From IMG/VR virus record IMGVR_UViG_3300042894_004149, positions 1-23,998 of that record: 23,998 nucleotides of DNA; one strand, given 5' to 3'. The position numbers were made by a program, and so were the translations under genes. The notes below the pieces were generated by a model. The model was not told where the DNA came from and ran no database searches. It saw only the letters and a program-made list of their open reading frames with translations. This document shows, piece after piece, positions 8,206 through 22,741 of this stretch (position 1 is the first letter of the stretch; every line of letters starts with the position of its first letter). This DNA comes from a virus.

Positions 8206-8213
8206 TATTTATA
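8206..8213 (-). promoter_or_regulatory. T4-type late promoter box TATAAATA
   Basis: The minus strand reads a perfect TATAAATA, the T4 late -10 element, ending four bases before ATG 8201. With usual T4 geometry the transcript would begin at about the start codon, giving a leaderless or near-leaderless message. Weaker partial matches (TAAATA core) precede the 1475-aa gene (22741-22734) and the glycosyltransferase gene (23677-23670). Confidence 0.45.
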
Positions 8214-8216
8214 GTT

Positions 8217-8341
8217 AATAATTGGTCACTTTTAGTTTCACGGTAGCGAATCGTTACACTAGGCCAGCACCCGGCCACACCACGTAACAGAGTTACGGTC
8301 CTAAGGGTGTTCTTTATCGTCCGGCCGCAGCTAACGCGGCC
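8217..8341 (-). other. structured non-coding gap with stacked inverted repeats at the end of the cargo operon
   Basis: Between the deaminase stop (8314) and the next gene start (8201) I see no gene, but several inverted repeats. GGCCGC-7-GCGGCC (8323-8341) lies at the very end of the deaminase gene. CGTAAC-AGA-GTTACG (8283-8297) is a perfect six-base stem. GGCC-7-GGCC spans 8262-8276, and an imperfect GTA-x-CG stem lies near 8243-8257. None is followed by a U-tract on the minus strand, so a classical terminator is not supported. A structured 3' end or processing site is the simplest reading. Confidence 0.45.
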
Positions 8342-8970
8342 CCGTTGTTAAAACTTTGACTCCAACTGCTGGCAGTTCGGTTAGCTCGATCTTTGCTCCA
8401 GCGATATCCTGCACGATGCCCCGAACAGTCTTTGGTGCATGGTGATCCTAAAAAAGTCAATTCATCTAGTTGTTCTGTTCTGTGTTCCAAAAATGTATTG
8501 GCAAACACATGGCACAGCTCATGTATCTTGGGATTTTTTGTACACTCAGTGTGGAATTTTTTGTGTTGATATCGATCACTGAGATTCTGTGTGGGATCTT
8601 CAAATCCACAATATACTTTGCGTACTGGGCTGTTGTTGATTAATTCTGTACAACTTGGACCGTCTCGTTCGCTGACTGGCATTGGTTCACTGCAAGGACT
8701 GCAGGTTGTTATGATAATACTACCTGCAGGAATGTTACCAAACTTGCGCTCATACTGTTCCATGGCAGCAAGTTCTCCATGTGCCCGTCCGTGTGTGGTT
8801 TTATAATTCACTGCTTTGACTAGATTATTGTTAGTATCTAGTACTGCGGATGCTACCATGCCGTACTTTTCTGGGTCTTGTTTTTTACCCTCAATAATCA
8901 TTGCACATAACTGAACCAAAATATCATCCAGTTTGTTGTGGTTGCGAATTTGAAAATCACTGACTCGCAT
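8314..8970 (-). CDS. cytidine deaminase-like protein with capsid-targeting-like leader and C-terminal CTKDCSGH module (218 aa)
   Basis: The deaminase zinc site is visible: RAHGELAAM around His64/Glu66 (the H-x-E motif) and TCSPCSEP with Cys90 and Cys93 (P-C-x-x-C type). This fits a zinc-dependent nucleotide or nucleic-acid deaminase. The start is ATG 8970, forming a TAATG overlap with the preceding stop; a longer frame exists but would lose this coupling. The N-terminus MRVSDF resembles the MRASEF/MRAQEF leaders of neighbours, but lacks the hydrophobic-x-Glu cut site. After EQLDE (residues 166-170) comes a separate C-terminal module with GSPCTKDCSGHRAGYRW, a Cys/His pattern I recall from other phage proteins. 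The substrate (free cytidine/dCMP, DNA or host RNA) is unknown. It is the last gene of the cargo operon. Confidence 0.7.
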   Translation of the reverse strand: MRVSDFQIRNHNKLDDILVQLCAMIIEGKKQDPEKYGMVASAVLDTNNNLVKAVNYKTTHGRAHGELAAMEQYERKFGNIPAGSIIITTCSPCSEPMPVSERDGPSCTELINNSPVRKVYCGFEDPTQNLSDRYQHKKFHTECTKNPKIHELCHVFANTFLEHRTEQLDELTFLGSPCTKDCSGHRAGYRWSKDRANRTASSWSQSFNNGAALAAAGR

Positions 8971-9371
8971 TATATAACCTGTGTCCAACTAGTTATGTTG
9001 GGGTCATGGAATATTTCATCCAGGTAGTCCTGAGATTCCCAAATGTCTTCTTCTGCAAATTTAAATTTTCTATAAGCACCCGTGGCCTTGGCAACTTTTT
9101 CTAGGTATGATACTATGGCATCTTCACCAGCTTGGGCCAACGCAGCTCTGGCGTCAGGCTCAACTTTGGCCAATACTCGTAGCCCCCACAAGGCTGCACG
9201 ACCCCAATGACTGTCGGCTTTGAAATCTTGTACTGGTGTATTTTTATACCAGTCCGGAGCACCGGCCAATGGGTCTGGTCGCGCCGTATCAACACGATCG
9301 CCCAGGCTTTTGTTCATAAATCCCACAAACCCTGGATCAGTGGCTTCAATTAAAAATTCACTTGCTCTCAT
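8970..9371 (-). CDS. unknown protein with capsid-targeting-like leader MRASEFLIE (133 aa)
   Basis: No domain is recognised. The protein starts MRASEFLIEATD, closely resembling the T4 internal-protein leader MKTYQEFIAEA, with a prohead-protease-like site LIE|A after residue 9. The body is soluble and mainly helical, with a tryptophan-rich middle (HWGRAALWGL) and an Ala-rich segment near residues 70-90. A second possible cut site, YLDE|I, lies near residue 118. ATG 9371 overlaps the stop of the 661-aa gene by four bases (ATGA), and its own stop overlaps the deaminase start, so the three genes are translationally coupled. I infer that it is packaged in the capsid. Confidence 0.7.
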   Translation of the reverse strand: MRASEFLIEATDPGFVGFMNKSLGDRVDTARPDPLAGAPDWYKNTPVQDFKADSHWGRAALWGLRVLAKVEPDARAALAQAGEDAIVSYLEKVAKATGAYRKFKFAEEDIWESQDYLDEIFHDPNITSWTQVI

Positions 9372-11353
9372 TTTTTTGGAAACTTTTTACGCAAAAGTTG
9401 TTTAATAAGTGTTTGTGTGCGTGGATCTGTAGGAGGACTCCATTCTTTCCTGCGCAGATAATAGCCAGCAGTATCAAAACCGGAGTCAAATGTATTCACA
9501 CCTGGTGGAAAGTCAGCGGCCATCATGTTTTTCAGTGATCGAATGTTAGGCGGTGCTATTGTAATTTCAGCAAAATTACTTAGATCAGATTCCTCTGCTT
9601 TTTGTTTTCTAGCTGGGGCATTAAATTTAGCCAGTAGATTTGTTTTGGCACTGGCGCTGTTGGGAACCACAGTCATAAACTCTGCATACTCTGCTTTCCA
9701 ACCAACATTAAATGCTCCTCTGAATGCATCTTGAGCAACTTTATCCATGCTGCGATTTTTCTTGGATCTCATTATGTCCATGGACACCACAGGCATTCCG
9801 TTGGTTCTGAGATAGCTGATCATTTGTTCAGTATCAGCATTTGGCACAGTACCTGTTGGTCCACCAGTTAGTTTGGCCAGTTTGGCCAGATATTCTTGTC
9901 GGTACAGTGCAGGATCACTGGCAATGATCATGGCACGAATAAAGCGTCCCACTGAGTTGTAAATGCCTGCAAAGTCTGCCAGGTAGTTGCCGCCTGCATG
10001 CCTGAAGCTGAAGTATTTGCCGTTGTTGCTGATACTGGCTGTATGACCTTGTGTGGCATCCTTGGCCATGGCATTTAATTTTGCCATATCAATGCTGACA
10101 GTGGTTCTGGGTTGACCAATTGGATTGGGTTTTTTACCTCTGGGTGCTGTAACTTTGACTGCACCGGTGGCTCTGCTCACTATTGATCTTTCAGCACTGC
10201 GAGCGTAGCTGCTGTTTTCGCGGCCAAAGTACTTTAACACATACTGGTCGCCTAAAAACACTGCCAATTTAAGCACATCTAAATTGCCCGGTATGCTGAC
10301 ATTGATGTGCAGGCCGGTGGTTGAGTTGGTGTACAGGCGCAGTTGTTTTGCCAGGCCATAAAAACTTTTCAACGCACCCACAGCTTCTACTGCTGGCAAA
10401 GGCGGACTGACAATTTCGCAACTGGCATCACCACTGTTATCTGTTTCTAAACTGCCGTCTGGTTCAATGTACCAGTCGGTAAGATTTTTTGGTTTTTGGT
10501 GATAGCTATGAAATACATTGACCTTGCGACCGGTCATTTGTTCCAGCGACGGAACCAGTATGCTGACTGCTTTGTTATAATCTTCGTCATCATCATCTTC
10601 GTAGTCATCATCGTAATCTTCGTACTCATCTAAATTCAAGTCATCCCATACTTCTGCCATGGATGTTTTAAATTCAAAATACTGATCAAAGTTGCCGGAT
10701 ATCTGAACAGCATTTCCTGATCGACTGCCCTGGTCTACCACTGTGCCGGCATACACAAAACTCATTAAATCTTCCCAGCTGAAATTACTGAAATGTGTGA
10801 TTAACGAGGCCAGTTGGTTAGTTTTAGGTTTGTTATTGTAATAATAAATGCGGACGGCAAATCGTTTAAAAAATCTAAGTTGGCTAGTTGGTGACAGGTC
10901 TCGAGGAATACGATTTCTTGGATATTCTCGGCGAACGTGTTCAATTGTGTCGGCTCTGATTTTTTCTGGGATTTGATCAAATACTTCTCGTATCTTTGCA
11001 AGTTTTTGCTCTGTCATTTGCATGGCAGCAGTCTGCATGTTATCAAAGCCATTTATGGGTTGTTTAAATGCAAACAAATTGTCAAACTGATCAGGTGAAA
11101 AGGCTTCTAGCTCAGTGTTATCAACCCACTCTTCAAACATAGGTTGAAAGTTTGACATGGAGTATTTGTCATCTTCTTTGTTTATTTCCGGGTCAGCACC
11201 TGTGATTGTGGCTTCTGGTACATGCACTTCAAACTCAAAACCCACCAACACACCAGCCTGCTGTCCTTGTGCAACTGCACGGTCAAATTCCGTGGGGTTC
11301 ATGGCTGCTTCGTCAAGGTCAGCTTGTTCGGGTAAAAAGTGGTAGAGTTTCAT
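9368..11353 (-). CDS. amidoligase-family protein with protease-cleavable leader (661 aa)
   Basis: Three motifs of the phage amidoligase-type (COOH-NH2 ligase) fold are present: GFEFEVHVP at 38-46, EPDGSLE at 297-303 with CEIVSPPLP at 312-320, and TGLHINVS at 346-353. Members are expected to form amide bonds between carboxylates and amines using ATP; the substrate here is unknown. The leader (MKLYHFLPEQADLDEAA) holds two candidate prohead-protease sites, LPE|Q and LDE|A. Residues 239-259 form an unusually acidic stretch, encoded by a TCATCATCT-like repetitive DNA tract. The region after the motifs (LGDQYVLKYFGR, ALYRQEYLAKL) parallels the amidoligase part of the 1475-aa protein, so the two are paralogues. 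It starts 11 bases after the hydrolase gene and ends in an ATGA overlap with the next gene. Confidence 0.75.
   Translation of the reverse strand: MKLYHFLPEQADLDEAAMNPTEFDRAVAQGQQAGVLVGFEFEVHVPEATITGADPEINKEDDKYSMSNFQPMFEEWVDNTELEAFSPDQFDNLFAFKQPINGFDNMQTAAMQMTEQKLAKIREVFDQIPEKIRADTIEHVRREYPRNRIPRDLSPTSQLRFFKRFAVRIYYYNNKPKTNQLASLITHFSNFSWEDLMSFVYAGTVVDQGSRSGNAVQISGNFDQYFEFKTSMAEVWDDLNLDEYEDYDDDYEDDDDEDYNKAVSILVPSLEQMTGRKVNVFHSYHQKPKNLTDWYIEPDGSLETDNSGDASCEIVSPPLPAVEAVGALKSFYGLAKQLRLYTNSTTGLHINVSIPGNLDVLKLAVFLGDQYVLKYFGRENSSYARSAERSIVSRATGAVKVTAPRGKKPNPIGQPRTTVSIDMAKLNAMAKDATQGHTASISNNGKYFSFRHAGGNYLADFAGIYNSVGRFIRAMIIASDPALYRQEYLAKLAKLTGGPTGTVPNADTEQMISYLRTNGMPVVSMDIMRSKKNRSMDKVAQDAFRGAFNVGWKAEYAEFMTVVPNSASAKTNLLAKFNAPARKQKAEESDLSNFAEITIAPPNIRSLKNMMAADFPPGVNTFDSGFDTAGYYLRRKEWSPPTDPRTQTLIKQLLRKKFPKK
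10570..10640. repeat. imperfect TCATCATCT-type tract inside the 661-aa gene
   Basis: The plus strand shows many short repeats of TCATCATC and TCTTCGTA-like units. They encode the Asp/Glu/Tyr-rich acidic stretch (residues 239-259) of the amidoligase. This looks like local repeat expansion within a coding frame and may vary in length between related phages. Confidence 0.55.
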
Positions 11354-11364
11354 AATCTTTGGTG

Positions 11365-11949
11365 CTAGCTATTATTTATCGCGGCTATTTTATCTTGTAT
11401 AATAGCAATAACTTGGTCACTGAGCACCACTTCGTAGTGATTATAATCAACTTCAATCAGTTCCATTCCCTGATCATGATGCCGTTGACTGGCCACAGTG
11501 ACAATGCCGTCGTTTGGTCCCATGATCCAGGCCGCACTACCTTTGACTGTGACTATGTTGGTCCAGGGATGATGTATTTCAATTTGATCTGCTTGACGCA
11601 TGGGCCAACTGTGCGGACCTATGTCTTTTAACAGTCTGCTGAAGGGTAAAAAATACTTGGCAAAATCTGCAGTTTCGGCACCGCCATAGGGTGTGCTTAG
11701 TGTTATTGCACCCAGGACCTGATTGGGTATTAAATTGGCCAAATGCAGTGCATAGATTCCGCCCAAACTGTGTGCAACAAAAAATATATTGTTGACATCA
11801 TGTAACTGCGCCAGCATGGCATCAAGATTGTGCTTGAATCCGTCAGCACTGTTGTATTCTAAAACTATGTCAGATCCGCCGACATGTTCTCGGATATAAT
11901 TAAAACTTTCTCCTGTGGCACTGGCACCGTGAATATAAACTAGATTCAT
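11365..11949 (-). CDS. alpha/beta hydrolase, lipase/esterase-like (194 aa)
   Basis: The fold is clear: an N-terminal strand with an oxyanion-hole HG motif (LVYIHGASATG), the nucleophile elbow FVAHSLGG with Ser at about residue 61, a likely acid in MGPNDGIVT, and the catalytic His in DYNHYEVV. It is short for the family, so the cap domain is small. The substrate is unknown: a lipid, an ester on a surface glycan, or a signalling ester are all possible. It lacks the MRAxEF leader and any early hydrophobic-x-Glu site, unlike its neighbours, but sits inside the same coupled operon, between the possible 25-aa peptide (two-base gap) and the 661-aa amidoligase gene (11-base gap). No signal peptide is seen, so it would act in the cytoplasm. 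Confidence 0.82.
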   Translation of the reverse strand: MNLVYIHGASATGESFNYIREHVGGSDIVLEYNSADGFKHNLDAMLAQLHDVNNIFFVAHSLGGIYALHLANLIPNQVLGAITLSTPYGGAETADFAKYFLPFSRLLKDIGPHSWPMRQADQIEIHHPWTNIVTVKGSAAWIMGPNDGIVTVASQRHHDQGMELIEVDYNHYEVVLSDQVIAIIQDKIAAINNS

Positions 11950-11951
11950 TG

Positions 11952-12029
11952 TTAGACTGGACTATAAGGATTTTTAAATCTATCGTAGCCGTCGTCTTCA
12001 GGATACACTGGGTATTCATTGTGTCTCAT
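11952..12029 (-). CDS. possible 25-residue peptide, Tyr/Asp/Pro-rich
   Basis: ATG 12029 overlaps the stop of the 495-aa gene as ATGA, and the TAA at 11954-11952 is two bases before the hydrolase ATG. This gap would otherwise be the only 76-base hole in the operon. The peptide begins MRHNEYPVYPEDDGYD and ends NPYSPV. It has no recognised family. The exact tiling is the only evidence that it is translated; it might instead just carry ribosomes to the hydrolase start. Confidence 0.45.
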   Translation of the reverse strand: MRHNEYPVYPEDDGYDRFKNPYSPV

Positions 12030-13513
12030 TTCTTACGCCCTCTACGCATGTTTAATTGCCAGCGAGCCAGTTGTCCTTTGCGACCTTTGGCATGCGAGGC
12101 CTTTTCTAGTTCAGCCATGGTGGCTTTTTTAGGAATACCGTGTCTTTGACTATCACCAGGTCGACCTGGACCTTTGCCGTCGGCAAAGTTTTCTCCTACT
12201 GTCTTAACAATTGGTTTTATTCTGCTCAATTCATAAACAATTTCATCACCATGATCAAACGCATTTGATTTATATCCCCAAGCAGTGGCATATCGTTGAA
12301 CCAATCTGCTGTATAATTTTGACCGACTCATACTATTTTGTCCTGGTTCAACATCTTTGCTGGCTGAAAATGCTATGTTTGCTGGTTGTTCAGTTTTTAG
12401 AAACTGTTTTATAGCTGTTAGTACTGTGGCAAATACTCGTTGAGAATCACCATTGCCTGTGGTTTCTAAACTGTTGTTTCTCCAAAACGAAACATTAACT
12501 TCATACGGTGTGGTATGTTCAAACATGACATGCAGATATGATCCATCATCTAGTGTGGCTAATGCATCATAGTCACCATGTTCACTTTTCTCCCATTTAA
12601 TGGAATAAGGTTGATCAAAGGCTTCTGCCACACCCGGCTGATCTATTTTTGCATTCATGCTGGTCAAATGTTTGACGTCACTGTGCTTTTTCCATTTGGC
12701 CCACATGTTCTTGCCCATGGCAGTTTGTGCGCCACTGGGCCAAATATTGGCACCCAGCATACGCATGACCGCATACATGTTTTTGGCTATACCATGCCCT
12801 TGCCATTTTGGGCTCACATACGTACTGACACTTTCTAAAGCTGTGCGAGTGTCATGCTTGATAAATGTAACACGGCCCACTTCTCGGTTGTTGATTCTTG
12901 CTATGACTTCGGGCATGTTATCCCATTGAGTACGTACTAGATATGTGATACCATTGATTTCTTCACTCCAACGGAATCCTGGACGCAAGACTTCGTAATT
13001 AAACTTTTCCAGGCCTTCTGCTAGTTCTGTATCAGGGCGTGATACAGATTTAAAATCGACATCAAACAACGGACCTGGCATGTAGCGACCAGATTGCGTG
13101 ACCATGCCTGCTTGTAGGCGTTGGACTATTTCCGGAGTCAAATCACGATTGCGCAGATATTTAGGAAACAAATGTGTTTCCACAGGTGCGTCTCCTTCCA
13201 GCTTTGATATGGCCTGCATTCTATGACGGCCATCATGCCCTTTGACCTGTGCTGGTTCGCTGAAATCGCCGGACTGCCATGCTTCGGGCACAACAATATC
13301 TAAAAATGGAGCACCAATGGTACCACCTGTACCAATGTGCCGTTCCATTCTGCTGTTGTCTTGATCTGTGAGCGGTAATGCCAGTCGTAAAAATGTACTG
13401 GGCTTCATTGCCACACGCAGACCACGATAATCAACTTCCTGATTCCATGGCACAGATCCTGCGCCTGTGCGATTGTCTATGTTGACTTCGTTAACAAACT
13501 CTTGTGCTCTCAT
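12026..13513 (-). CDS. capsid-targeted multidomain protein: ParB-like and GNAT-like domains plus basic tail (495 aa)
   Basis: Leader MRAQEFVNE|V matches the capsid-targeting pattern. Residues 30-120 contain KGHDGRHRMQA (91-101), the signature loop of ParB/sulfiredoxin-type domains, which include nucleases and CTPases. Residues 185-280 look like a GNAT acetyltransferase, with YVSPKWQGHGIAKNMY (232-247) as the acetyl-CoA loop. After VAE|A (297) comes a phage module containing FSASKDVEPGQNSMSRSKLY, and after VGE|N (441) a strongly basic tail rich in Gly, Lys and Arg with GQLARWQLNMRRGRKK at the end. The modules are therefore separated by the same hydrophobic-x-Glu tripeptide as in the 1084-aa protein. 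Both gene ends are ATGA overlaps. The ParB and GNAT activities are inferred from single motifs. Confidence 0.68.
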   Translation of the reverse strand: MRAQEFVNEVNIDNRTGAGSVPWNQEVDYRGLRVAMKPSTFLRLALPLTDQDNSRMERHIGTGGTIGAPFLDIVVPEAWQSGDFSEPAQVKGHDGRHRMQAISKLEGDAPVETHLFPKYLRNRDLTPEIVQRLQAGMVTQSGRYMPGPLFDVDFKSVSRPDTELAEGLEKFNYEVLRPGFRWSEEINGITYLVRTQWDNMPEVIARINNREVGRVTFIKHDTRTALESVSTYVSPKWQGHGIAKNMYAVMRMLGANIWPSGAQTAMGKNMWAKWKKHSDVKHLTSMNAKIDQPGVAEAFDQPYSIKWEKSEHGDYDALATLDDGSYLHVMFEHTTPYEVNVSFWRNNSLETTGNGDSQRVFATVLTAIKQFLKTEQPANIAFSASKDVEPGQNSMSRSKLYSRLVQRYATAWGYKSNAFDHGDEIVYELSRIKPIVKTVGENFADGKGPGRPGDSQRHGIPKKATMAELEKASHAKGRKGQLARWQLNMRRGRKK

Positions 13514-16500
13514 TGTGGTTGGTATTTTTTAACATCGTTGGCAAACTGTTTTTTAGTTGCTTGTACAATACCACCAAAACGTTTGTCAGCACGTTTGAAG
13601 TTGCCTTCTAGGTCTGATTTGCCTGCATCGGCTGCGGCAGCACGTTTGTATTGTGTTAACTTTTCGTTTGAAAGTTCGTTGAGAGCTTCAAACGGCCAAT
13701 CAGCGGAGCCTTGCTCTGATACATCTTCTTTGGTGGCAACATTTATGGCCTTACCACTACGCTCTGGATTAGGATCTTGTCTGCGCTTGCGTTGAGCTGC
13801 ACTAGCACGACCTTTTTTGCCTAGTGCATGTGCCTTGGCAGCCGGCAGGCATTTGGGTTTGCCTTCGCCAGGCTCTCGAGCACAGTCGCCTTTGATATTG
13901 CCTTTGGTGTCCATGCGCACCCATTTTTCCTTGTTGAACCAGTCATGTAGATTTTCTTCCAGTTCTTGCACTAGACTTTCTGTGGTTTTATTGCCCCAGT
14001 TGCTTGCACCTTTCTTGCGGCATTTAACTAATGCACCACTGGCATAAGCACTGGGCCATACTTTGTAACGACTCTTAACTTTGTAGTAGCAAGCATCTTT
14101 CTTTTCGTTCATCAATTCTTCACTGACCATCTCGCCACCACAATGCGGGCAACTTTCACTATGTGACTGTTGTTCTTGTACACTTTCTTTTGGAACACAG
14201 TTAGGAACTTGTTTACCACCTTTGTTTTTCATACCTACTTGCTTATGTGTATCCCAGCAGGCTTCTTCTAAATCTATACCCTCGTCAGTTTTCTTAGTAG
14301 CATTTATATATTTTCTATATACCGACGCTGCCTCAGATTTTCCTGCAGCCTTAGCACGTTGTTCCATTGCCACTGCGGCTTGGATCTTATGTGCGTGACT
14401 ACGACCACTGTTACGGATCTTTGACACACTGGCTCTAGCATCCTCTGCTGTAGCAAATTTTAAACCAGTGATAGTTCCTTTAGGATTTTCATCTGTGTAT
14501 AAATCGCTATGCTTTTTACTATTAGCAGGTTGTCCTGGTTTTCTTGCAATTCTAGAATTATCTTCTTCAATATCTTCATTCTTCACACAATTGGGATATG
14601 TTTTACCAAACATTTTTTTGTTACCTTCTTTGTGATAACCTTTCCAACAAGCTTCATCTAAATTAGTATGGTCTACATGAGTTTCACACATGCCACAGTC
14701 AGGGCAAGTCATCTCCATTTCAACACTTTCCGTGTGTTTTTTCTTGCCGGCGCAGTGAGCCTTTTGCGAGAAGCCCTTGGGATGACTACAGTTGATACTG
14801 CTCTTGTACTTTTGGCTCCAGTCTTCAGACATGCCTTTGGGTTTCTTGCCTGCTTTCTTCATGGCAATGGCAATGGCCGCCTGTTGTGCAGCATTTGCAG
14901 CTTCCATCACACTTTCGTGACAATTCCACTTGCGTAAGGCCAAGGCTTTACGAGTTGGTTTGCCATTGGGCTTTTTCATTGGACCTTTGACACCTGACAT
15001 TCTGGCGCAGAAACTCTTACGGCGTTTGGCAGCCTTGCTGCCTGGTTTGAGTTTACTGGGCTTGGTAGTGACTGCAGTCTGTAGTTTACTACCAGGATGT
15101 TCTCTACGATAGCTGGCCACACCTTTGGCATTTAATCCACCAGTTTTGTTCTTGCCAGATTTCTTTTGCCAAGCCGCAGTTTCCAGCAGTGTCTCATCAT
15201 CTACTGATTCAAAATCTTCCCAAATTTGTTCAGGATCAACACTGAGTTGTTTGGCCAGTGCACCAATCCAGTCTTCAATGATATCAAATTGACTGTCTAG
15301 ATCTTGCGTTACATCTTGAATACCGTTTATTAGATTCAAGTTTTCTGTCACACGTCGATTAGCAGCCCGCATAAGGCTCACTGTTTCATCAAGCCCATTC
15401 AAGGCCTGTAGATGATTCAGTTGGTCAACGGTTTTTTTTTGAGTGTGTTTGGTAGTCTGCTCTAACGGGCCTGGCCTGGCATCTTCCTGAGCCATAGATC
15501 GAAATGGAGTCATTGCTTTCTTTGCAACTTTTGGCAGGCCTCCTGTGGGGTCGACTCGGGTGGCCAATCTATTGTTGCCTAGACTTTTGGTTTCTCTATC
15601 ATCACGTTTAAAGTTTGGATTTTTATTGTAGAAGTCTTGACTTTGTTTATTCATCCGGCTGGTATCTTTTTCGCCTTCCGCCATGCCTTCTTGCATGCCT
15701 TTTAATAGTTCTTGTGCTCTTTCAACACTAATCATATATCTACCAGTGCGATTAGGATCTGCTGCCTTTTGTAGATATTCTTTGCTAAAACCTTTTGGTG
15801 TTTCTGCCGCCGGTTTATTATCTGCGGGTGCAGTTACTGTTGCACTTGGTTTCAATCCACCAGTAAACCCACCTTGTCCGTCAGGGGTTACTCTAGCCTG
15901 TGCACCAGCAGAACCCAATGCCATTGCACCAGTTAATGCGGCTGTACCTAGTGTTTCTTTCCAACCTTCATCCATGCCCTGTTGTGGATCATTGGGATTG
16001 GTAGTCAACACAAATTCTTTGCCCTGATTGAACAGTTTGGCCTGCATTGTTAATGCGGCTTTGTTTGCGGCAGCTTTATCGCGGAATGAATATGGATTGC
16101 CCTGTTTGTCTCTAATGAGTTTGCCATTGAGACGAATATACCAGGTACGTGTATCAGGTGCAGGGTCCTGACCTTCAGGATCTCTTGCACCACGAGCAAA
16201 GCCTGTGCGATTTGCATGATAGTTTCTGCCTGCTTCGCCTAGATCTTGACCCATTCGGGCCAATGCTCGTTCAACTTGCTGAACCCAACCGCTGACGTCA
16301 CTGGAGCCAATTTCTTCTGTATCACCCACAAAGTCTGCAACATCATCAATGGCCTGTGTTACCAACACAGGGCCATACTTGCTCAATAAGTCTGTGCGTT
16401 GTGTCAGTATCCTTCTAGTGATAGCACCGGCCACTGGGTTTTGTTCTTCATTTTCGGCCACACCACGTTGACCTGGCACAGATCCAATATTTTTATAACT

Positions 16501-16764
16501 GGCCAGTTTAGCATCCATGGCATCCAATGCTGCAGAGATTGTGTTGTAATCAGACAAAAATGTCATGCCAGCATCTGGACCTTGATTTTTAACAATGCTT
16601 TTGTATTGACCCAACAAATGTCTGGCTTGCCAATAAGCAATAGGCATCATTTCGCGACCTATTTTTAAATCAATGTCTTGACTACGATTCACTGCAACAG
16701 CCAGTTGCTGAAATACCTTGTATGCATCATTCGTGCGATTTTCAAATAGGTCTTGTACTAACAT
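13510..16764 (-). CDS. lysine-rich multi-module protein, candidate capsid-internal polyprotein (1084 aa)
   Basis: The protein is a string of short basic modules divided by hydrophobic-x-Glu sites. Leader MLVQDLFE|N is at residue 8. Modules include RTWYIRLNGKLIRDKQGNPY (206-225), a DUF6321-like RRKSFCARMSGVKGPMKKP (581-599), a segment with INCSHPKGFSQKAHC (657-671), two copies of a CW...GK...PNCV unit (706-726 and 836-856), a GRSHAHKIQAAVAMEQRAKA block (787-806), ACYYKVKSRYKVWPSAYASG (891-910), DWFNKEKWVR...CLPAAKAHALGKKGRASAA (941-990), and a C-terminal KRFGGIVQATKKQF (1061-1074). Two CxxC pairs (687-690 and 872-875) could bind zinc. Candidate cuts lie after LLE528, VME621, MSE647, LDE704, IEE734, LEE834, VQE864, LEE937, VSE1017 and LNE1030. 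I infer that it is packaged and cut into peptides. TAATG and ATGA junctions couple it to both neighbours. Confidence 0.75.
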   Translation of the reverse strand: MLVQDLFENRTNDAYKVFQQLAVAVNRSQDIDLKIGREMMPIAYWQARHLLGQYKSIVKNQGPDAGMTFLSDYNTISAALDAMDAKLASYKNIGSVPGQRGVAENEEQNPVAGAITRRILTQRTDLLSKYGPVLVTQAIDDVADFVGDTEEIGSSDVSGWVQQVERALARMGQDLGEAGRNYHANRTGFARGARDPEGQDPAPDTRTWYIRLNGKLIRDKQGNPYSFRDKAAANKAALTMQAKLFNQGKEFVLTTNPNDPQQGMDEGWKETLGTAALTGAMALGSAGAQARVTPDGQGGFTGGLKPSATVTAPADNKPAAETPKGFSKEYLQKAADPNRTGRYMISVERAQELLKGMQEGMAEGEKDTSRMNKQSQDFYNKNPNFKRDDRETKSLGNNRLATRVDPTGGLPKVAKKAMTPFRSMAQEDARPGPLEQTTKHTQKKTVDQLNHLQALNGLDETVSLMRAANRRVTENLNLINGIQDVTQDLDSQFDIIEDWIGALAKQLSVDPEQIWEDFESVDDETLLETAAWQKKSGKNKTGGLNAKGVASYRREHPGSKLQTAVTTKPSKLKPGSKAAKRRKSFCARMSGVKGPMKKPNGKPTRKALALRKWNCHESVMEAANAAQQAAIAIAMKKAGKKPKGMSEDWSQKYKSSINCSHPKGFSQKAHCAGKKKHTESVEMEMTCPDCGMCETHVDHTNLDEACWKGYHKEGNKKMFGKTYPNCVKNEDIEEDNSRIARKPGQPANSKKHSDLYTDENPKGTITGLKFATAEDARASVSKIRNSGRSHAHKIQAAVAMEQRAKAAGKSEAASVYRKYINATKKTDEGIDLEEACWDTHKQVGMKNKGGKQVPNCVPKESVQEQQSHSESCPHCGGEMVSEELMNEKKDACYYKVKSRYKVWPSAYASGALVKCRKKGASNWGNKTTESLVQELEENLHDWFNKEKWVRMDTKGNIKGDCAREPGEGKPKCLPAAKAHALGKKGRASAAQRKRRQDPNPERSGKAINVATKEDVSEQGSADWPFEALNELSNEKLTQYKRAAAADAGKSDLEGNFKRADKRFGGIVQATKKQFANDVKKYQPQ

Positions 16765-17378
16765 TATTTTTCCTCAATGTAATCTTGTTGTTCGGGATGA
16801 CGTGCTCGCATACGTGCATTAAACATTTCCACTGCCATACGTGCATGATCTACATTTTCAAAACGAGTTTTCAATGCACGACCACCGCGACGAATTTCAT
16901 AACCTGTGTTTTCATCTCCATGCAATTCGCAATTGCTGCCGTCTTCCATGGCAATGGCTATGACAGGATAGCCTTCATCTGTGTTTTGCTTTTGGATTTT
17001 TGGCACTAGGTCGCGAATCTCAGCAGATTTTTGCTTGAGATCTGTGTCGTTGTGTGTTTTATCTTTTAGGTCGCTGTCAACTCGTATTTCATCTTCAAGA
17101 TTTTTCAAATAGTCAGTGAGGCTTCGTTTTACCTTGTCAACCACATCTTCCACAACGTCTCGATCGTCTTGTACACTATCGCCTACCATGTATCCTGCCA
17201 TGGGATTTTTAGGATCAGTTTTTGCGTTCAGTACTGACACAGTTTTGGGCTTGAACAGCGCAGGCAATTGATGTGCAGATTTCTGCTGAGCATTAAGCCC
17301 ATGCCGGACTGTGACCGGAGTTATTCGTCCTTCAAGAACGGCCAAACGTTCAACTATGCTGCGGAATTCAGAATCCAT
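16764..17378 (-). CDS. unknown acidic/helical phage protein (204 aa)
   Basis: No domain is assigned, though the opening (MDSEFRSIVERLAVLEGRI) and the NPMAGYMVGDSV segment look like a family I have seen in T4-like phages. Residues 75-130 are highly charged and likely a long helix or coiled coil (VDKVKRSLTDYLKNLEDEI). The last 70 residues, with ELHGDENTGYEIRRGGRAL, may form a small beta domain. Early hydrophobic-x-Glu sites IVE|R and VLE|G fit protease processing. The C-terminus, DYIEEK, is nearly the same as that of the protein ending at 23695. It starts one base after the Dps-like stop and ends in a TAATG overlap with the 1084-aa gene. Confidence 0.65.
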   Translation of the reverse strand: MDSEFRSIVERLAVLEGRITPVTVRHGLNAQQKSAHQLPALFKPKTVSVLNAKTDPKNPMAGYMVGDSVQDDRDVVEDVVDKVKRSLTDYLKNLEDEIRVDSDLKDKTHNDTDLKQKSAEIRDLVPKIQKQNTDEGYPVIAIAMEDGSNCELHGDENTGYEIRRGGRALKTRFENVDHARMAVEMFNARMRARHPEQQDYIEEK

Positions 17379-17379
17379 A

Positions 17380-17820
17380 TCACGCCCTTACCTCTTTTAG
17401 TGTTGCACGTAGTTGCCAGGCAAACTTGTTGGTTTGACTCAATCTTTCGGCAATGAAATTGGCAATGTCTTGTTTGTTTTCTTGGGTGGCGGCAGTAAAA
17501 CATTGGTTCAACAAATCAACCAAGATTTCACTGTCGGCCAGCAATTCTTCTACCATGAGTCGGGCGCGAGGTATTTTGCTTTGTCCGGGTATTACACTGA
17601 GTTCTAAAAGACGTTCCATACTGCCTGGTGCATATTCGCCCAGGCTACGGATATATTCTGCTATGGGATCCACTGCAGAATAGGCATCTTCATATATTTT
17701 CTGAAAAAACTTGTGATACTGATAAAAGTCAGGAGTTTCTACATTCCAATGAAAAGCATGTGCTTTCACATAGTGTGCAAACTGTGTTCCCAACAGTGTT
17801 TTTAACAAATCAGCTAACAT
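17380..17820 (-). CDS. dps: Dps-like ferritin-family protein (146 aa)
   Basis: AHAFHWNVETPDFYQYH (20-36) matches the Dps signature HWNV-x-x-P-x-F. The intersubunit ferroxidase residues can be placed from E. coli Dps: H51 = His24, H63 = His36, D78 = Asp51 and E82 = Glu55, all with the right spacing. The fifth residue, D67, is Gln40 here, so metal binding may be altered. Dps proteins form 12-subunit shells that oxidise iron and protect or compact DNA. It lacks a basic N-terminal DNA-binding tail and a capsid leader. Its place among candidate internal proteins suggests protection of phage or host DNA, but the role is inferred. TAATG coupling upstream and a one-base gap downstream bind it into the operon. 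Confidence 0.85.
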   Translation of the reverse strand: MLADLLKTLLGTQFAHYVKAHAFHWNVETPDFYQYHKFFQKIYEDAYSAVDPIAEYIRSLGEYAPGSMERLLELSVIPGQSKIPRARLMVEELLADSEILVDLLNQCFTAATQENKQDIANFIAERLSQTNKFAWQLRATLKEVRA

Positions 17821-18017
17821 TACTTTTTCCGTTTCTTGTATGTTTTGTAAGACTCTGGCGTGTTTGGAGTCTCGTCATTAGAGTATTTATGCCCGGCAAA
17901 GAAACTGCCGGCATTTCGAGAAATCACACCGCCCATGGGTGTGGCAACGGTGGCGATACTGCCTGAACCTGTGGCACCTGCTGATGCATTTTCACGTATA
18001 AATTCTTGTGCTCGCAT
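17820..18017 (-). CDS. small basic-tailed protein with leader MRAQEFIRE, candidate internal capsid protein (65 aa)
   Basis: The leader MRAQEFIRE|N is the cleanest match in the window to the T4 internal-protein targeting sequence. The mature part would be only 56 residues: a Gly/Ala/Ser-rich stretch (ASAGATGSGSIATVATPMGG), then a polar region, then a Lys/Arg-rich end (KTYKKRKK). Such composition fits a small DNA-associated internal peptide rather than an enzyme. The gene has TAATG overlaps at both ends (18017 and 17820). No known family is named. Confidence 0.7.
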   Translation of the reverse strand: MRAQEFIRENASAGATGSGSIATVATPMGGVISRNAGSFFAGHKYSNDETPNTPESYKTYKKRKK

Positions 18018-18301
18018 TATCTTATCCTCACTGTGGAATCTTGTATGGTAGCAGTGCCTTCTGCTACTCGCAAGTTCTGTATATTTAACCCTGCAGAAGT
18101 GCCCGGTACCAGCTCATAACGGATCTTGTAATCACCAGGTTCTGCCAATATAGGTATCATTTCTTCAAGATAAACATTTTCCCAGATCCATGTGCGTTCT
18201 GTGAACAATTCATTGTTCACATACAGTCTATAGATAGGCAGTTGACCAGTCTCATAATCACAGTGAACATCAGCCACAACTTTCACAAATTGCTGTGTCA
18301 T
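18017..18301 (-). CDS. unknown beta-rich protein (94 aa)
   Basis: The sequence alternates short hydrophobic strands and turns (IYRLYVNNELFTERTW, DYKIRYELVPG) and looks like a small beta-sandwich, as found in phage structural or carbohydrate-binding domains. I recall similar small proteins in T4-like phages but no function. It has no capsid leader. It sits between the 1475-aa gene (ATGA overlap at 18298-18301) and the 65-aa tagged gene (TAATG at 18017), so it is co-translated with presumed cargo. It could be an assembly partner or chaperone for its neighbours, but nothing in the sequence shows this. Confidence 0.6.
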   Translation of the reverse strand: MTQQFVKVVADVHCDYETGQLPIYRLYVNNELFTERTWIWENVYLEEMIPILAEPGDYKIRYELVPGTSAGLNIQNLRVAEGTATIQDSTVRIR

Positions 18302-21300
18302 ACTTTTACTTCTTTTACACTACCAATTTCCCAGTCTGCCACACCGTACTGTGCTTTCATTAATTGTCTGGCCAAATGTGCATTTTGTGCAGTCACAGCA
18401 ACATCAATGTAGCCTGTGTAGGTCGGCTGTTTTATTTTTACAGGAGCAGACCATAGTTTATAGGTTGTGTTGGGATTTTTAGTTTCAGCAACTTCCTGAT
18501 TGACCAATTGTCTTGCTAAGTTTTTTTGTTTGTTAATATTCTTAGGAGTTCCTGTGCCACTTTCGTGATGATTGAATACGCCATACAGTTTGATGACTGT
18601 GGGATTGCGACCTTCAATGGTATAATATAAACTAAGGTCTCTGGTTAAATGTGCGTGTCGTAATTTTGGTATTGCAGACCCCAGTGGTCCTGCAGCAATA
18701 AACGGAGAGTCGTTGCCCCAGGGTTGACCTGGCGTGACCATTTTAAACTTTAAAAATTCTTGTATTTTATTTGCTAAATCAGGAAGTTGCTCTGATTTGT
18801 TCTGTACTGTTTTATCAAACAAACTGCTTTTTTTGATTTCAAAATTATTTGTAGATTCAGTCAGAGCCCAAGGTTCTTGATCAAGCTTGATCAAAGCATT
18901 GATAAATGATTCAGTCACTGACTCACTCATTATTGGATACACTTCAGTGGGAACTGCAATACTGTTGCTTCGTACCCATTGTCCAGCAACTCTGTTAGCA
19001 TCTTCTTGGCTGTTGCCTATACCGCTGAATCTGTGGAGTTCTTCTCCAGTGTTGCTGTCTACTACTTTCCACGCACCAGTGAATGTACCGGGTGTTGCTC
19101 GTTGTTGTGCTAGGTCTATAGTAGATCCTGGAACAGTCCTTTGTGCAAATTCAAGATCAAGTGGAACGTCTTCTACACCCGGTATCGGACGTGGAGTTGG
19201 TAATTGTTGTGCCCTTGGAGTAATGATAACATCATCTGTGGTCACTGTCATTGGGAAGTTTGTTGGATCAGTTTCATGCGCAGCCGCCAATGCTGACAGT
19301 TCATTTGGTGCACGAACTTCTACATAGCGTGCCATGTTGTCTAGCAAGCTCACTGTCCATAGTGGTTCAACTCTTGAAGCGCCAACAGTTGTTGGTGTTG
19401 TTGAATTTACTTCAATGCCACTTTCTGTGTCGATCACTGTCCAGTCTGTGGGTGCAGTGCCGTTTCTGTTGGCCCAGGCCTGCAACACATAGGGTATTTG
19501 TTGTGGTACCGCACTGAACATGAATCTTGGCCGAGCTTCCGCTCCGGTGGCACGATTTATAATTTCATAACGACCATTGGGATCACTTTGTCGCCCAGGA
19601 GTTGCAGTGTGGCGTATATCTCCGCCCACTACTTGCATGCCGGAATCTAAAACAATATAGTTGTAAAAAGCAATGTCGTTTTCAGCGGCATAGAGTTTGG
19701 CCTGTGCATCAGCCTTTTCGGCACTGGTAGCAGTGAACCTTGCATATTCTTGATAGGTGTCAGGATTGACCATGCGATACTGTTGTTTGTCTTTGGGCTT
19801 GTCTTGGCCGAGTTGACGTTGCTCCGCGGCAATTCTTGTCAATTCCTCTCGGTTGATTTTTCCAGCCATGTATTCTGACAACAGGTTAGCAAAGTCTGCT
19901 TCGGTAGCAATCTTAAAAGTTTTCTTTCCGGTAGCAGGATTTCTACCGTGTTCAATCTCTGTGCCACTCAATGCACGATACAGTTTCTTTAGATACTCTT
20001 GTCGATACTTTGCAGGATCCACTGCTGCATCAGTGGCCACAACAAATCGTTCTAGTGTCGTTTGAATCTTATCAAAGTTTGCATCCAACCAATCACCACC
20101 TGGAGATCTAAATTCAATATAGCCATTTTTGACATTGATTGAACTGTACTTGTCTGTCTGGGCGTTGTGTATCACACGAGTGGCAGCTTTGCTTAGATTT
20201 TCACGCATGCGATCCAACAAAACTTCTGCAGTTTCGGGACGATTTTTTATATTGTTCATGACAATATTGTACACTGACTTGGCGTAGGTATTACCCAATC
20301 TTCCAAATTCTTTAGCCACATAGTTGTCACCCAACAACAATGCCAGTTTGACAAGATCAAGATTTTTCATTTCTGCATCAAGTCCCGGTACACTCACATT
20401 GATATGCAGGCCAGTTTTGTTTGCTTTGCTGGTATAGCAACCATTGGAGTCGGCCCACTTTTTGACTTTTTGCATGTCCTTGGCCAGTTCATCCAGAGGC
20501 AAGGGTGGGCTAATAAATTCTAATCCGCGATCATTGCCACTATTGGCTTCTAAGCTGCCGTCAGGCTCAACAATATACGCACCTTGACTATATGCATCGT
20601 CGCGATCTATGTTGTGATAATCGTCGCCCCACATCACTGGTCGACCAATGGCCTTTTCAAAACTTTCAGCCACTGCTTCTATACTGTAAGTGCCATCGCC
20701 CATGCCATCGTCTTCGGTCCAGTGGGGCCAAGTAATCCTAGTACTATAAGCACTTTCTACATCCTGCATGTCTCGTATGCCTTCAGATCTCAACCATTGT
20801 TCTTCGTCATACTCGCCATCATCCTTTTTTTCATCTCTAAATTCTTCAAGAGCTTCGTCTCTGGATTCGCCGGCTTCTTCCCACAGATAATTGGAATAGT
20901 TCAGTATGTCGTCTTTGGTTATGTTATAGTCTGAATCTTTGTCAAGGTAAGCAATAATTTCTTCTGGATCAATGTTGTTGGCCACCCATTCAGCAAAGAA
21001 ATCAAATCCGTTATCGGTCCAGTCTTCGTAAATTTTAGTTTCACGCCAATCAAGGTAATTTGACTCAAGCTCAGTTCGCAACTCTCTTATGGCTCTGGCG
21101 CCGTTAAAATCGCGGTCATCAAAAAATTCAATGATTCCATCAATATCCCGGGCAGTTTCGTTGTAATTGTCATAATCAGGCTCTGGCTGAAAATCATACT
21201 CGCCGCCTTCAACATTGGGCACAATCATTTCAAATTCAATGCCGGCTCGTGCATCAACAGACTTTGACAACTTTCTTAGGCTTTTGCCACCCATGTTGAT

Positions 21301-22725
21301 TTCGTCTAGTTGTTCAGCTTCACTCAATGGTCGTTTGAAAGCGGCCAACTGTTCAGCCAATCGCTTGACCAGGCCGTCTGGGCGTAGTTCTTGTGGATGA
21401 CCTTGTGCGTCGGTGTTTAGTAAAAAAGCATTGGCTGCACGACCAATGGCGCCAGGACGTACATCCTGAGTAATGGCCATCTCAAATCTGGGATCATGCA
21501 TTTCAGCAGTGGTAGGAATATACCCACTGGCTTCTGCCACTGTGGACTTTTCAAACAGTTCCGGATGCATGGCACCGTATCGACGCATGATAATGCCGGC
21601 TGCTGCATTGGCTTCATTTTCTTCAGGTGATCCTGTGTGTCCAGAGTCGGGCGCTATTGTTTGTGTTTCACCTTGACGTTGATGAGTGAGTTCGTGTGCG
21701 CAGGTACGCAACACATCCATGATGTGCCGATTGCCTATGCTGATTTCCAATTGGTTTGTGTCGTGATCATAACGACCAAATGTTCGGTTTCGTGCTGACC
21801 AAGCTGGATCTCTACGCAATCGTATTTGTGGTTCTGTTTCTAATTCAAGTTCTTTTGCACAGAATGCCACAAAATCTCGTAAAATACTTTCATCATCGGT
21901 TTCACTCAAGAACATTTTGGTACTAGGGCTAACACCATCCGGAGTTATTTCTACTTCGGCCAGCTTCTTTTTGCTATTAAATCCATAGGTCATCCTGGGC
22001 TTGGACATTATGGTGGATTCTACTAGACTTAACTCTTCATCATGTGCAGCATTACGTGCATCATGCAATCGAGAAATATCACCTTGTGTACGTAGCATTT
22101 TGTACGCAAGATTTTCTCCGCCCAGTTCGCCGTTTTGGGCCAATCCGGCCAAGCGCATGCGTTTGATTTTGTCAATCAACTGTGAGATTTTGGTCAAATT
22201 TTTGCCAGCAACTGCTGAATCAATTCTGTGCTTGAGATCATTGTATTTGCTGCGAACTGCATTGTCATTCACTGTGGCAGGTCTTTGTCGTGGTATATGC
22301 ACCCAATCGTTGTTCAACACACTGAACACACCTTGACTGACTGCAGGCTTGTCTGCGTCTTCTACATAAAGCTCAACTTCATATCCGCCAATGGTGATGT
22401 TGTGGGTGTCATTATATTGGTACTTTTTAGCATCAAACAATTCACGGTACACTTCGTTATCGGCATGTGGCATTCGAACTACCAAATGTAGATCAATGTC
22501 AGAATGTGGAGTGTATGTGTAGCCGGCATTGCTACCCAGCACTGTGATGTCTTTGACGTCTATATTGGCAAGCCCAAGATGTTCGCGAAAATCTTCTGCA
22601 ATGGTCAGCAGTTGATCGCGAACTTCGGGGCGCATGTGCTGGCCTTGCCAGATCACAGGGTTCAATTTGTCATTGAATTTTACTGCGTCGGCAAGGTTAT
22701 AGGAATCTAATTCGGTGATGTTCAT
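18298..22725 (-). CDS. giant polyvalent protein: nucleotidyltransferase, HExxH metallopeptidase, amidoligase, repeat modules (1475 aa)
   Basis: Domains in order: (1) a nucleotidyltransferase, 35-150, with LGSNAG at 63-68 and SDIDLH at 75-80 (GS...DxD) and a third acidic strand VELYVED; (2) a zinc metallopeptidase, 240-395, with AHELTH at 343-348 and a likely third ligand in ENEANA near 371; (3) an amidoligase, about 490-920, with GIEFEM (495-500), EPDGSLE (720-726), LEFISPPLP (735-743) and TGLHINVS (771-778), interrupted by a very acidic insert around 505-680; (4) degenerate 50-residue repeats between 980 and 1265; (5) a C-terminal module with LARQLMKAQYGVADWEIGSV. Hydrophobic-x-Glu sites fall between parts (LVE235, VAE398, LDE475, VTE1272, LTE1290). 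It matches the published idea of 'polyvalent proteins' that phages carry into hosts. The leader MNITELD is a weak capsid tag. It is the first gene of the operon. Confidence 0.8.
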   Translation of the reverse strand: MNITELDSYNLADAVKFNDKLNPVIWQGQHMRPEVRDQLLTIAEDFREHLGLANIDVKDITVLGSNAGYTYTPHSDIDLHLVVRMPHADNEVYRELFDAKKYQYNDTHNITIGGYEVELYVEDADKPAVSQGVFSVLNNDWVHIPRQRPATVNDNAVRSKYNDLKHRIDSAVAGKNLTKISQLIDKIKRMRLAGLAQNGELGGENLAYKMLRTQGDISRLHDARNAAHDEELSLVESTIMSKPRMTYGFNSKKKLAEVEITPDGVSPSTKMFLSETDDESILRDFVAFCAKELELETEPQIRLRRDPAWSARNRTFGRYDHDTNQLEISIGNRHIMDVLRTCAHELTHQRQGETQTIAPDSGHTGSPEENEANAAAGIIMRRYGAMHPELFEKSTVAEASGYIPTTAEMHDPRFEMAITQDVRPGAIGRAANAFLLNTDAQGHPQELRPDGLVKRLAEQLAAFKRPLSEAEQLDEINMGGKSLRKLSKSVDARAGIEFEMIVPNVEGGEYDFQPEPDYDNYNETARDIDGIIEFFDDRDFNGARAIRELRTELESNYLDWRETKIYEDWTDNGFDFFAEWVANNIDPEEIIAYLDKDSDYNITKDDILNYSNYLWEEAGESRDEALEEFRDEKKDDGEYDEEQWLRSEGIRDMQDVESAYSTRITWPHWTEDDGMGDGTYSIEAVAESFEKAIGRPVMWGDDYHNIDRDDAYSQGAYIVEPDGSLEANSGNDRGLEFISPPLPLDELAKDMQKVKKWADSNGCYTSKANKTGLHINVSVPGLDAEMKNLDLVKLALLLGDNYVAKEFGRLGNTYAKSVYNIVMNNIKNRPETAEVLLDRMRENLSKAATRVIHNAQTDKYSSINVKNGYIEFRSPGGDWLDANFDKIQTTLERFVVATDAAVDPAKYRQEYLKKLYRALSGTEIEHGRNPATGKKTFKIATEADFANLLSEYMAGKINREELTRIAAEQRQLGQDKPKDKQQYRMVNPDTYQEYARFTATSAEKADAQAKLYAAENDIAFYNYIVLDSGMQVVGGDIRHTATPGRQSDPNGRYEIINRATGAEARPRFMFSAVPQQIPYVLQAWANRNGTAPTDWTVIDTESGIEVNSTTPTTVGASRVEPLWTVSLLDNMARYVEVRAPNELSALAAAHETDPTNFPMTVTTDDVIITPRAQQLPTPRPIPGVEDVPLDLEFAQRTVPGSTIDLAQQRATPGTFTGAWKVVDSNTGEELHRFSGIGNSQEDANRVAGQWVRSNSIAVPTEVYPIMSESVTESFINALIKLDQEPWALTESTNNFEIKKSSLFDKTVQNKSEQLPDLANKIQEFLKFKMVTPGQPWGNDSPFIAAGPLGSAIPKLRHAHLTRDLSLYYTIEGRNPTVIKLYGVFNHHESGTGTPKNINKQKNLARQLVNQEVAETKNPNTTYKLWSAPVKIKQPTYTGYIDVAVTAQNAHLARQLMKAQYGVADWEIGSVKEVKV

Positions 22726-22733
22726 ACGAACTG

Positions 22734-22741
22734 TATTTACC
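22734..22741 (-). promoter_or_regulatory. weak late-promoter-like box (GGTAAATA) before the cargo operon
   Basis: Six of eight bases match TATAAATA, with the TAAATA core intact. It lies in the 22-base gap before the 1475-aa gene, the only gap at the head of the operon. No Shine-Dalgarno is seen between it and ATG 22725. It is the best candidate for late transcription of the operon, but a chance match is possible. Confidence 0.3.

Follow-up and report, generated by a model that had tools for sequence, protein, structure and literature searches.

A candidate cassette of protease-trimmed, modular head cargo in a giant T4-like phage

Introduction

What is known about proteins that travel inside phage heads? 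The internal proteins IPI-IPIII and Alt of phage T4 carry a capsid targeting sequence (PMC9026906, PMC9958956), a leader in which an aromatic residue at position 4 matters for targeting. Polyvalent proteins combine many enzyme domains in one polypeptide, which is thought to be delivered with the DNA and split by proteolysis, and a ParB-like domain is packaged in P1 (Iyer et al., 2017; PMC5512222). In phiKZ and SPN3US, many head proteins are cut after x-Glu, in the motif S/A-x-Glu, by a distant relative of the T4 protease gp21, several of the propeptides being longer than 100 residues (PMC5694885). For the jumbo phage Atu_ph07, 131 virion proteins have been reported, and for the cyanophage S-CREM2, 52 of 219 products were detected in purified virions (PMC10665884, Table 3); what we say of the virions of S-CREM2 and of a second cyanophage, S-SCSM1 (PMC9602691), draws on parts of these two sources. 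Here we analyse a block of genes at 22725-8314 of the viral contig IMGVR_UViG_3300042894_004149 from IMG/VR, which was taken over its whole length of 23,998 bases and is called the window below. Taken as a whole, the block is probably best explained as a late-expressed, protease-trimmed, modular cargo cassette of a giant T4-like phage.

Results

A block of minus-strand genes in a relative of T4-like jumbo phages

The block holds 11 genes, not twelve as counted in an earlier note on this DNA, every one on the minus strand. Their junctions are overlaps or gaps of at most 11 bases, as that note had stated for all of them, with the sole exception of a 76-base gap at 11950-12025; the same-strand run extends past the block and spans nearly the whole contig (656-23952). 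Domains were assigned to the genes by Pfam and PHROGs. The phage groups with T4-related jumbo phages by its DNA polymerase gene, whose product is 47-50% identical to those of, for example, Sinorhizobium phage Phosso and Agrobacterium phage Atu_ph07. Two longer contigs (75,033 and 50,467 bases; G005, G006) encode the 1084-amino-acid (aa) and 1475-aa proteins of the block at 100% identity and are therefore taken to come from the window phage or nearly so, and a large relative, G001, a contig of 364,404 bases, is 85% identical in DNA polymerase.

A shared N-terminal leader on unrelated protein bodies

Five genes of the block begin with a clear or plausible leader:

17820..18017, minus strand: 65-aa gene; leader MRAQEFIRE, then NASAGATGSGSIAT, then a Lys-rich tail
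13510..16764, minus strand: 1084-aa polyprotein-like gene; leader MLVQDLFE; modules start at most 4 residues from [LIVMF]xE sites
12026..13513, minus strand: 495-aa gene; leader MRAQEFVNE; N-terminal ParB-like GHDGRHR motif and a weak GNAT match
9368..11353, minus strand: 661-aa amidoligase-like enzyme; leader MKLYHFLPE; Pfam Amidoligase_2 at 5e-4, just under the cut-off
8970..9371, minus strand: 133-aa gene; leader MRASEFLIE; body without known relatives

A leader of about 10 residues ending in hydrophobic-x-Glu is clear on four of these (17820, 12026, 9368 and 8970), at true gene starts and with Ile, Val or Leu at P3; MKLYHFLPE is the looser form, and one of its orthologues reads MKLYDFLTE. 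MLVQDLFE is a plausible short variant, since the gene in the same place starts with MIIDDLFE or MNLLNLIE in two of three relatives, the third having MIIDQLFT. A further candidate, MRVSDFQIR of the gene at 8314, was rejected: the orthologues shown have MxxSDFxIx or MRATDFEIR, and the Glu at the cleavage position is present in none. The proposal that several products share a leader thus survives for the sequences originally listed except MRVSDFQIR, MLVQDLFE being a plausible case. No clear leader was seen when the starts of the genes at 11365, 16764, 17380, 18017 and 18298 were inspected. Orthologues of the 1475-aa protein (gene 18298) begin with M-x-[IL]-x-E before LDS[YF] (MNITE, MNINE, MDIYE, MNILE and MKLQE, with MNTAE deviating), and this start could be a very short leader.

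Does such a leader appear more often than expected by chance? In contigs of relatives totalling about 1.75 Mb, picked by DNA polymerase and not by the leader, we found the motif M[RK]xx[EDQ][FILY][ILVMFT]xE at 19 of 5,504 near-start Met codons versus 3 of 10,402 internal ones (Fisher p=8e-7). Over all loci gathered, 287 open reading frames (ORFs) carry a 9-residue leader and fall into 42 single-linkage groups by body sequence, a figure that measures breadth and not enrichment, as some loci were fetched using the motif itself. The giant-phage consensus is MRAxEF[I/L/V]xE. The T4 leader that the earlier note had invoked for comparison, MKTYQEFIAE, is indeed encoded in T4 DNA, twice, next to one instance of MKTFKEFIKE. 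As in the T4 internal proteins, a short leader ending in hydrophobic-x-Glu is found on unrelated bodies, and a prohead protease of the T4 gp21 type (family S77) is encoded, here by the relatives.

The prohead protease and the presumed capsid cleavage site of the relatives

The S77 protease is present in all five cassette-bearing contigs of at least 249 kb that were searched (G001, where its gene lies at 262533-263171, G007, G008, G009 and G010), and also in the cyanophages S-SM2 and S-CREM2. One of the five, G009, is a giant contig of 524,565 bases that has several places matching the 1084-aa protein. In all 34 aligned capsid proteins of the clade, LxE stands directly before a short Ser/Thr/Ala/Gly-rich stretch of the NASAGST type, within the N-terminal region that corresponds to where T4 gp23 is cut after FLTE. 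Judged by position and motif, the capsid protein of the clade is presumably cut after this LxE. The leader end, L/I-x-Glu, is the same type of tripeptide as this expected cut site, and in many of the capsid proteins LxE is followed by NASAGxT, the very sequence found in the 65-aa product.

Hydrophobic-x-Glu sites between the modules of long products

Beyond the leader, sites of the same kind recur inside the longer products, where they precede the following modules:

14920..15180, minus strand: DUF6321 module (residues 529-615 of the 1084-aa protein), after LLE; Pfam 9e-21
14713..14823, minus strand: WSxKYKxSI[DN]C module, after MSE; 31/32 contexts with [LIVMF]xE
14563..14652, minus strand: first CWxGY two-Cys module, after LDE; by sequence comparison
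14173..14262, minus strand: second CWxGY-type module (ACWDTHKQVGMK), after LEE; by sequence comparison
13963..14103, minus strand: KKDACYYKVK module, after MNE; by sequence comparison
13714..13953, minus strand: LHDWF basic two-Cys module, after LEE; by sequence comparison
13513..13674, minus strand: LSNEKLTQYK basic module, after LNE, at the polyprotein end; by sequence comparison
Predicted cut between 12623 and 12622, minus strand: FDQPY module of the 495-aa gene, after VAE
Predicted cut between 12191 and 12190, minus strand: NFADG basic module of the 495-aa gene, after VGE

The 1084-aa protein has a net charge of +36 and 17 Cys, with a weak Pfam match to DUF5872 at residues 894-957; most of its modules (14173-14823, 13714-14103) are short and basic with two conserved cysteines. 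The predicted cuts follow residues 8, 528, 621, 647, 704, 734, 834, 887, 937 and 1030 of this protein, residues 9, 297 and 441 of the 495-aa protein, residues 9 and 15 of the 661-aa protein and residue 170 of the deaminase-like protein (gene 8314). Sites of this kind give the 1084-aa and 495-aa products the look of polyproteins, and the 1475-aa product is probably one as well.

In relatives, the same modules occur in two ways, alone behind a leader or within a long protein. After removal of contexts with similar upstream sequence, [LIVMF]xE stands at the module's own register in 118 of 138 contexts of ten module types, against a background of 2.1% per position in the same ORFs; with Glu and a large hydrophobic P3 predominating in this score, for which the leader was left free, the S/A-x-Glu motif of the phiKZ/SPN3US type was rejected for these junctions. 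The WSxKYK module is preceded by [LIVMF]xE in 31 of 32 distinct contexts and by Glu in all 32, the residues beyond P3 varying freely. In an unbiased version of the test, the first 30 residues after each leader were followed to homologous stretches inside other ORFs, without hand-picked modules: a site lay exactly at the homologous bond in 112 of 207 cases and far less often at other offsets, one offset echo being caused by double sites. Because the contexts come from related phages and share descent, p-values overstate their independence and can only be indicative; what carries the argument is that P1 and P3 persist while the residues around them change. An orthologue of the 1475-aa protein in G004 points the same way, with about 480 additional residues, flanked by TVSE and PVRE, exactly at the STVAE/ASGYIP (VxE) site of the window protein; part of this insert recurs elsewhere in G001, again between such sites.

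Could the internal sites instead belong to the folds, for example as helix starts, so that the T4 kind of internal protein is confined to the leader-bearing genes and the long proteins stay whole? The sites are conserved beside conserved modules, and conservation alone is no proof of cutting; of the numerous [LIVMF]xE triplets in the 1475-aa protein, the majority are probably due to chance; and no cut product has been seen. Against this, about ten unrelated modules share P3 and P1 at their starts while P2 and the positions beyond P3 vary, and other phages have the same modules right after a cleavable leader. The DUF6321 module provides a control, as it also occurs in other phage families (Pelagibacter and Synechococcus T7-like phages, HTVC023P, MEP401): an S77 gene was not found in any of six such phages, and in none of the six is the module preceded by a leader or by [LIVMF]xE. 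We therefore regard uncut long proteins as unlikely. The DUF6321 module has been found standing alone in podoviruses. In two Pelagibacter phages its gene lies between the scaffold and capsid genes and thus points to the head; a literature search for DUF6321 found no paper.

A second question is which protease would act. The gene concerned is the largest of the block:

18298..22725, minus strand: 1475-aa multidomain protein, no typical leader; Pfam/PHROGs

Its product has a nucleotidyltransferase-like domain (1-234), an HExxH peptidase-like region and then an amidoligase-like domain; like a polyvalent protein, it joins several biochemically different domains in one polypeptide, and these are re-sorted in relatives. 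Iyer et al. (PMC5512222) proposed embedded peptidases as a release mechanism, and the neighbourhood of the HExxH region to the two enzyme domains would suit products that are freed by their own metallopeptidase and not by a prohead protease. However, the sites match the S77 rule and thus fit a protease acting in trans, and they are also found in the 1084-aa and 495-aa proteins, in which Pfam shows no peptidase region. Self-release in place of the prohead protease accordingly has only a small chance of being correct, although the two mechanisms could coexist. The amidoligase is unmentioned in PMC5512222. The window also differs from phiKZ and SPN3US, its P3 being a large hydrophobic residue and its leader having about 9 residues.

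Homologues in the virions of cyanophages

The published proteomes of cyanophages offer a view of the cargo in purified particles. With a strict pattern modelled on T4 (^M[KR].{2,4}F[ILVMF].E), all four matching S-CREM2 proteins, a SAM hydrolase, a kinase, a cytidylyltransferase and gp13, are among those detected (p=0.003, somewhat optimistic, as the N-termini of detected proteins had been seen before the pattern was written); under a looser pattern, 5 of 6 matches were detected (p=0.003), and under the loosest, 7 of 14 (p=0.025). Homologues of the window block were detected in three of three cases, namely gp137 (DUF6321), gp156 (nucleotidyltransferase-like, a homologue of the 1475-aa protein) and gp160 (KKDACY module). 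In S-SCSM1, ORF29 is homologous to the 1084-aa protein and carries the annotation of a virion protein; the NMNAT named as detected begins with MKSFLQFLKE (PMC9602691). These virions thus resemble the proposed cassette in holding leader-bearing enzymes (SAM hydrolase, kinase, cytidylyltransferase, NMNAT) together with homologues of the window's modules and of its nucleotidyltransferase-like domain, but their leaders, unlike those of the window, keep the T4 spacing (MKxFxxFLxE). Neither the leader nor the junction sites are mentioned, and leader removal is not reported, in those passages of PMC10665884 and PMC9602691 on which we draw. The virion-associated gp12 of S-CREM2 (L246 7704-10313), annotated as Cas9-like, has no strict leader; an internal FASFMAE lies about 18 residues in.

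These data also bear on whether the leader is a signal for packaging at all. It might be a conserved start serving something else, such as high translation or turnover of host proteins, on ordinary late or host-takeover genes: the tight gene run lies near the DNA polymerase and not beside head genes, and several of the encoded enzymes could act in the infected cell. Yet the S-CREM2 proteins with the strict leader are all found in purified virions, the leader ends in the presumed cleavage tripeptide of the capsid protein, and fusions have equivalent sites in their interior, which together make a role apart from packaging very improbable.

A copy of the capsid arm in small proteins

Behind its predicted cut after Glu9 (between 17991 and 17990), the 65-aa protein continues with NASAGATGSGSIAT, a near copy of the N-terminal arm of the relatives' mature major capsid protein. 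In a capsid protein of the clade, LxE is followed by NASAGSTASGNIAT; aligned to the post-leader sequence, this stretch scores 57, compared with a maximum of 42 in 2,000 shuffles. The combination of leader and capsid arm recurs in dozens of relatives; a search of the 65-aa protein against annotated phages gave no match. In T4, one protein has the same design:

NC_000866.4 18966-19130, minus strand: T4 gp61.1; capsid-arm match

This hypothetical protein of 54 aa consists of MKTFKEFIKE, a copy of the gp23 mature N-arm (alignment score 69, maximum in shuffles 42) and a Lys-rich tail. The resemblance appears to have been picked up in annotation already, since some records label relatives of gp61.1 'major capsid protein'; we found no paper on it in the literature and no open paper with proteomics of gp61.1. 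Among cyanophages, the best non-capsid match of the phage's own capsid arm is gp160 in S-CREM2 (75% over 24 aa) and ORF97 in S-SCSM1, both virion proteins carrying the copy (GFTGAAAPxGPxAGYDPLM) near the N-terminus. Support for an arm copy is weaker or absent in S-SM2, where only the capsid gene itself matched, in RN05-S, and in G007, where a short search of the phage's own proteome gave no convincing copy.

The arms of giant phages, cyanophages and T4 bear no obvious resemblance to one another, and each group therefore appears to copy its own; the sequences of gp61.1 and the 65-aa product differ accordingly, each following the capsid protein of its own phage. That the copies track three unrelated-looking arms suggests co-evolution of cargo and capsid. 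Tentatively, we raise the possibility that in T4, cyanophages and giant freshwater phages alike, arm-copying cargo docks at, or occupies, the site of the freed arm, as a general means of holding internal proteins to the inner shell.

Late-type promoter boxes and the remaining genes of the block

The remaining features of the block are the following:

22734..22739, minus strand: TAAATA box, resembling the core of T4 late promoters; 14 bases ahead of the 1475-aa gene start
18017..18301, minus strand: 94-aa conserved gene, no leader
17380..17820, minus strand: Dps/ferritin-like protein, no leader; Pfam 6.5e-22
16764..17378, minus strand: 204-aa conserved gene, no leader
11373..11378, minus strand: TAAATA box, upstream of the amidoligase-like gene
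11365..11949, minus strand: alpha/beta hydrolase-like protein, no leader, with the 76-base gap upstream
8314..8970, minus strand: deaminase-like (cytidine-deaminase-like) gene with HxE and CxxC signature; Pfam 6e-9

Late expression of the cassette is likely, judged by the TAAATA boxes in the window and by their enrichment upstream of genes in G001. A further box lies at 8211 on the minus strand, and the window has 14 on the coding strand versus 3 on the other; in G001, boxes at most 35 bases upstream are found for 27 of 352 genes versus 2 on the opposite strand, with 1.5 expected (about 18-fold). The boxes resemble T4 late promoters yet sit very close to start codons.

Among the other products, LDE, the second site of the 661-aa enzyme, precedes AAMNPTEF (between 11309 and 11308), and the deaminase-like protein ends in a GSPCTKDCSGH module after LDE (between 8461 and 8460). 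No PHROGs or Pfam family scored above its cut-off for the 133-aa, 94-aa and 204-aa genes. The Atu_ph07 homologue of the amidoligase starts with MRWQDISSKKLTE, which is not a clear leader.

Discussion

How would such a cassette work? The 9-residue leader on at least four or five products would bring them into the prohead core, where the S77 protease would cut after hydrophobic-x-Glu and remove it. The same protease would cut the identical sites between the modules of longer products, releasing small basic peptides, often with two cysteines, as well as enzymes inside the head. Since all parts begin at junctions of one type, they could move from gene to gene, either as the sole body after a leader or as a piece of a fusion. 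The cargo would then be delivered into the host along with the DNA; this delivery we infer, as we do packaging and cutting in the window phage, the leader's function in targeting and what the cargo does. As a working analogy, the system may operate like the T4 internal proteins joined with domain shuffling in the style of polyvalent proteins. It would depart from T4 in its far larger range of protein bodies, in polyprotein-like products with internal sites, and in enzymes beyond Alt.

Several points weigh against this interpretation. T4's MKTYQEFIAE, with aromatic residues at positions 4 and 7 in its targeting half, exceeds the giant-phage leader by one residue, and most of the giant-phage leaders, being of the MRAxEF form, have no aromatic at position 4; the Phe near the cut is retained in the window leaders, MKLYHFLPE does have an aromatic at position 4, and cyanophage leaders have both. 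A clear leader is missing from the Dps-like protein, the alpha/beta hydrolase and three further genes of the block. For the earlier note, a genome lacking any T4-type prohead protease would refute the idea; the relatives encode one, and a search of the window and of the 75-kb and 50-kb contigs attributed to its phage, all fragments of the genome, yielded no S77 gene. We found no proteomics for the window phage or its close relatives, and the cyanophage data concern the packaging of homologues, some of which, such as gp156, have no strict leader. Even so, packaged and trimmed cargo is well supported for the leader-bearing genes, although no line of evidence comes from the window phage's own virions. 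The original idea of a capsid-packed cassette is thus borne out by the leader on unrelated bodies, the S77 protease of relatives, the shared L/I-x-Glu and the homologues in cyanophage virions, and is not supported in its extension to all genes of the block. The internal cleavage sites and the copy of the capsid arm, both missed there, are added here.

What does this mean for the phages concerned? A leader or a hydrophobic-x-Glu junction would predict, among the many 'hypothetical' genes of giant and cyanobacterial phages, which products are contents of the head and where they are cut, and thereby opens a route to phage effector enzymes from sequence alone. In T4, a classic model phage, gp61.1 is a conserved hypothetical protein to which the idea of a copied capsid arm gives a testable role. 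Finally, the junction scheme suggests a reason why cargo genes shuffle so freely: with parts that all start at the same kind of site, a phage could mix and match the cargo that it delivers.

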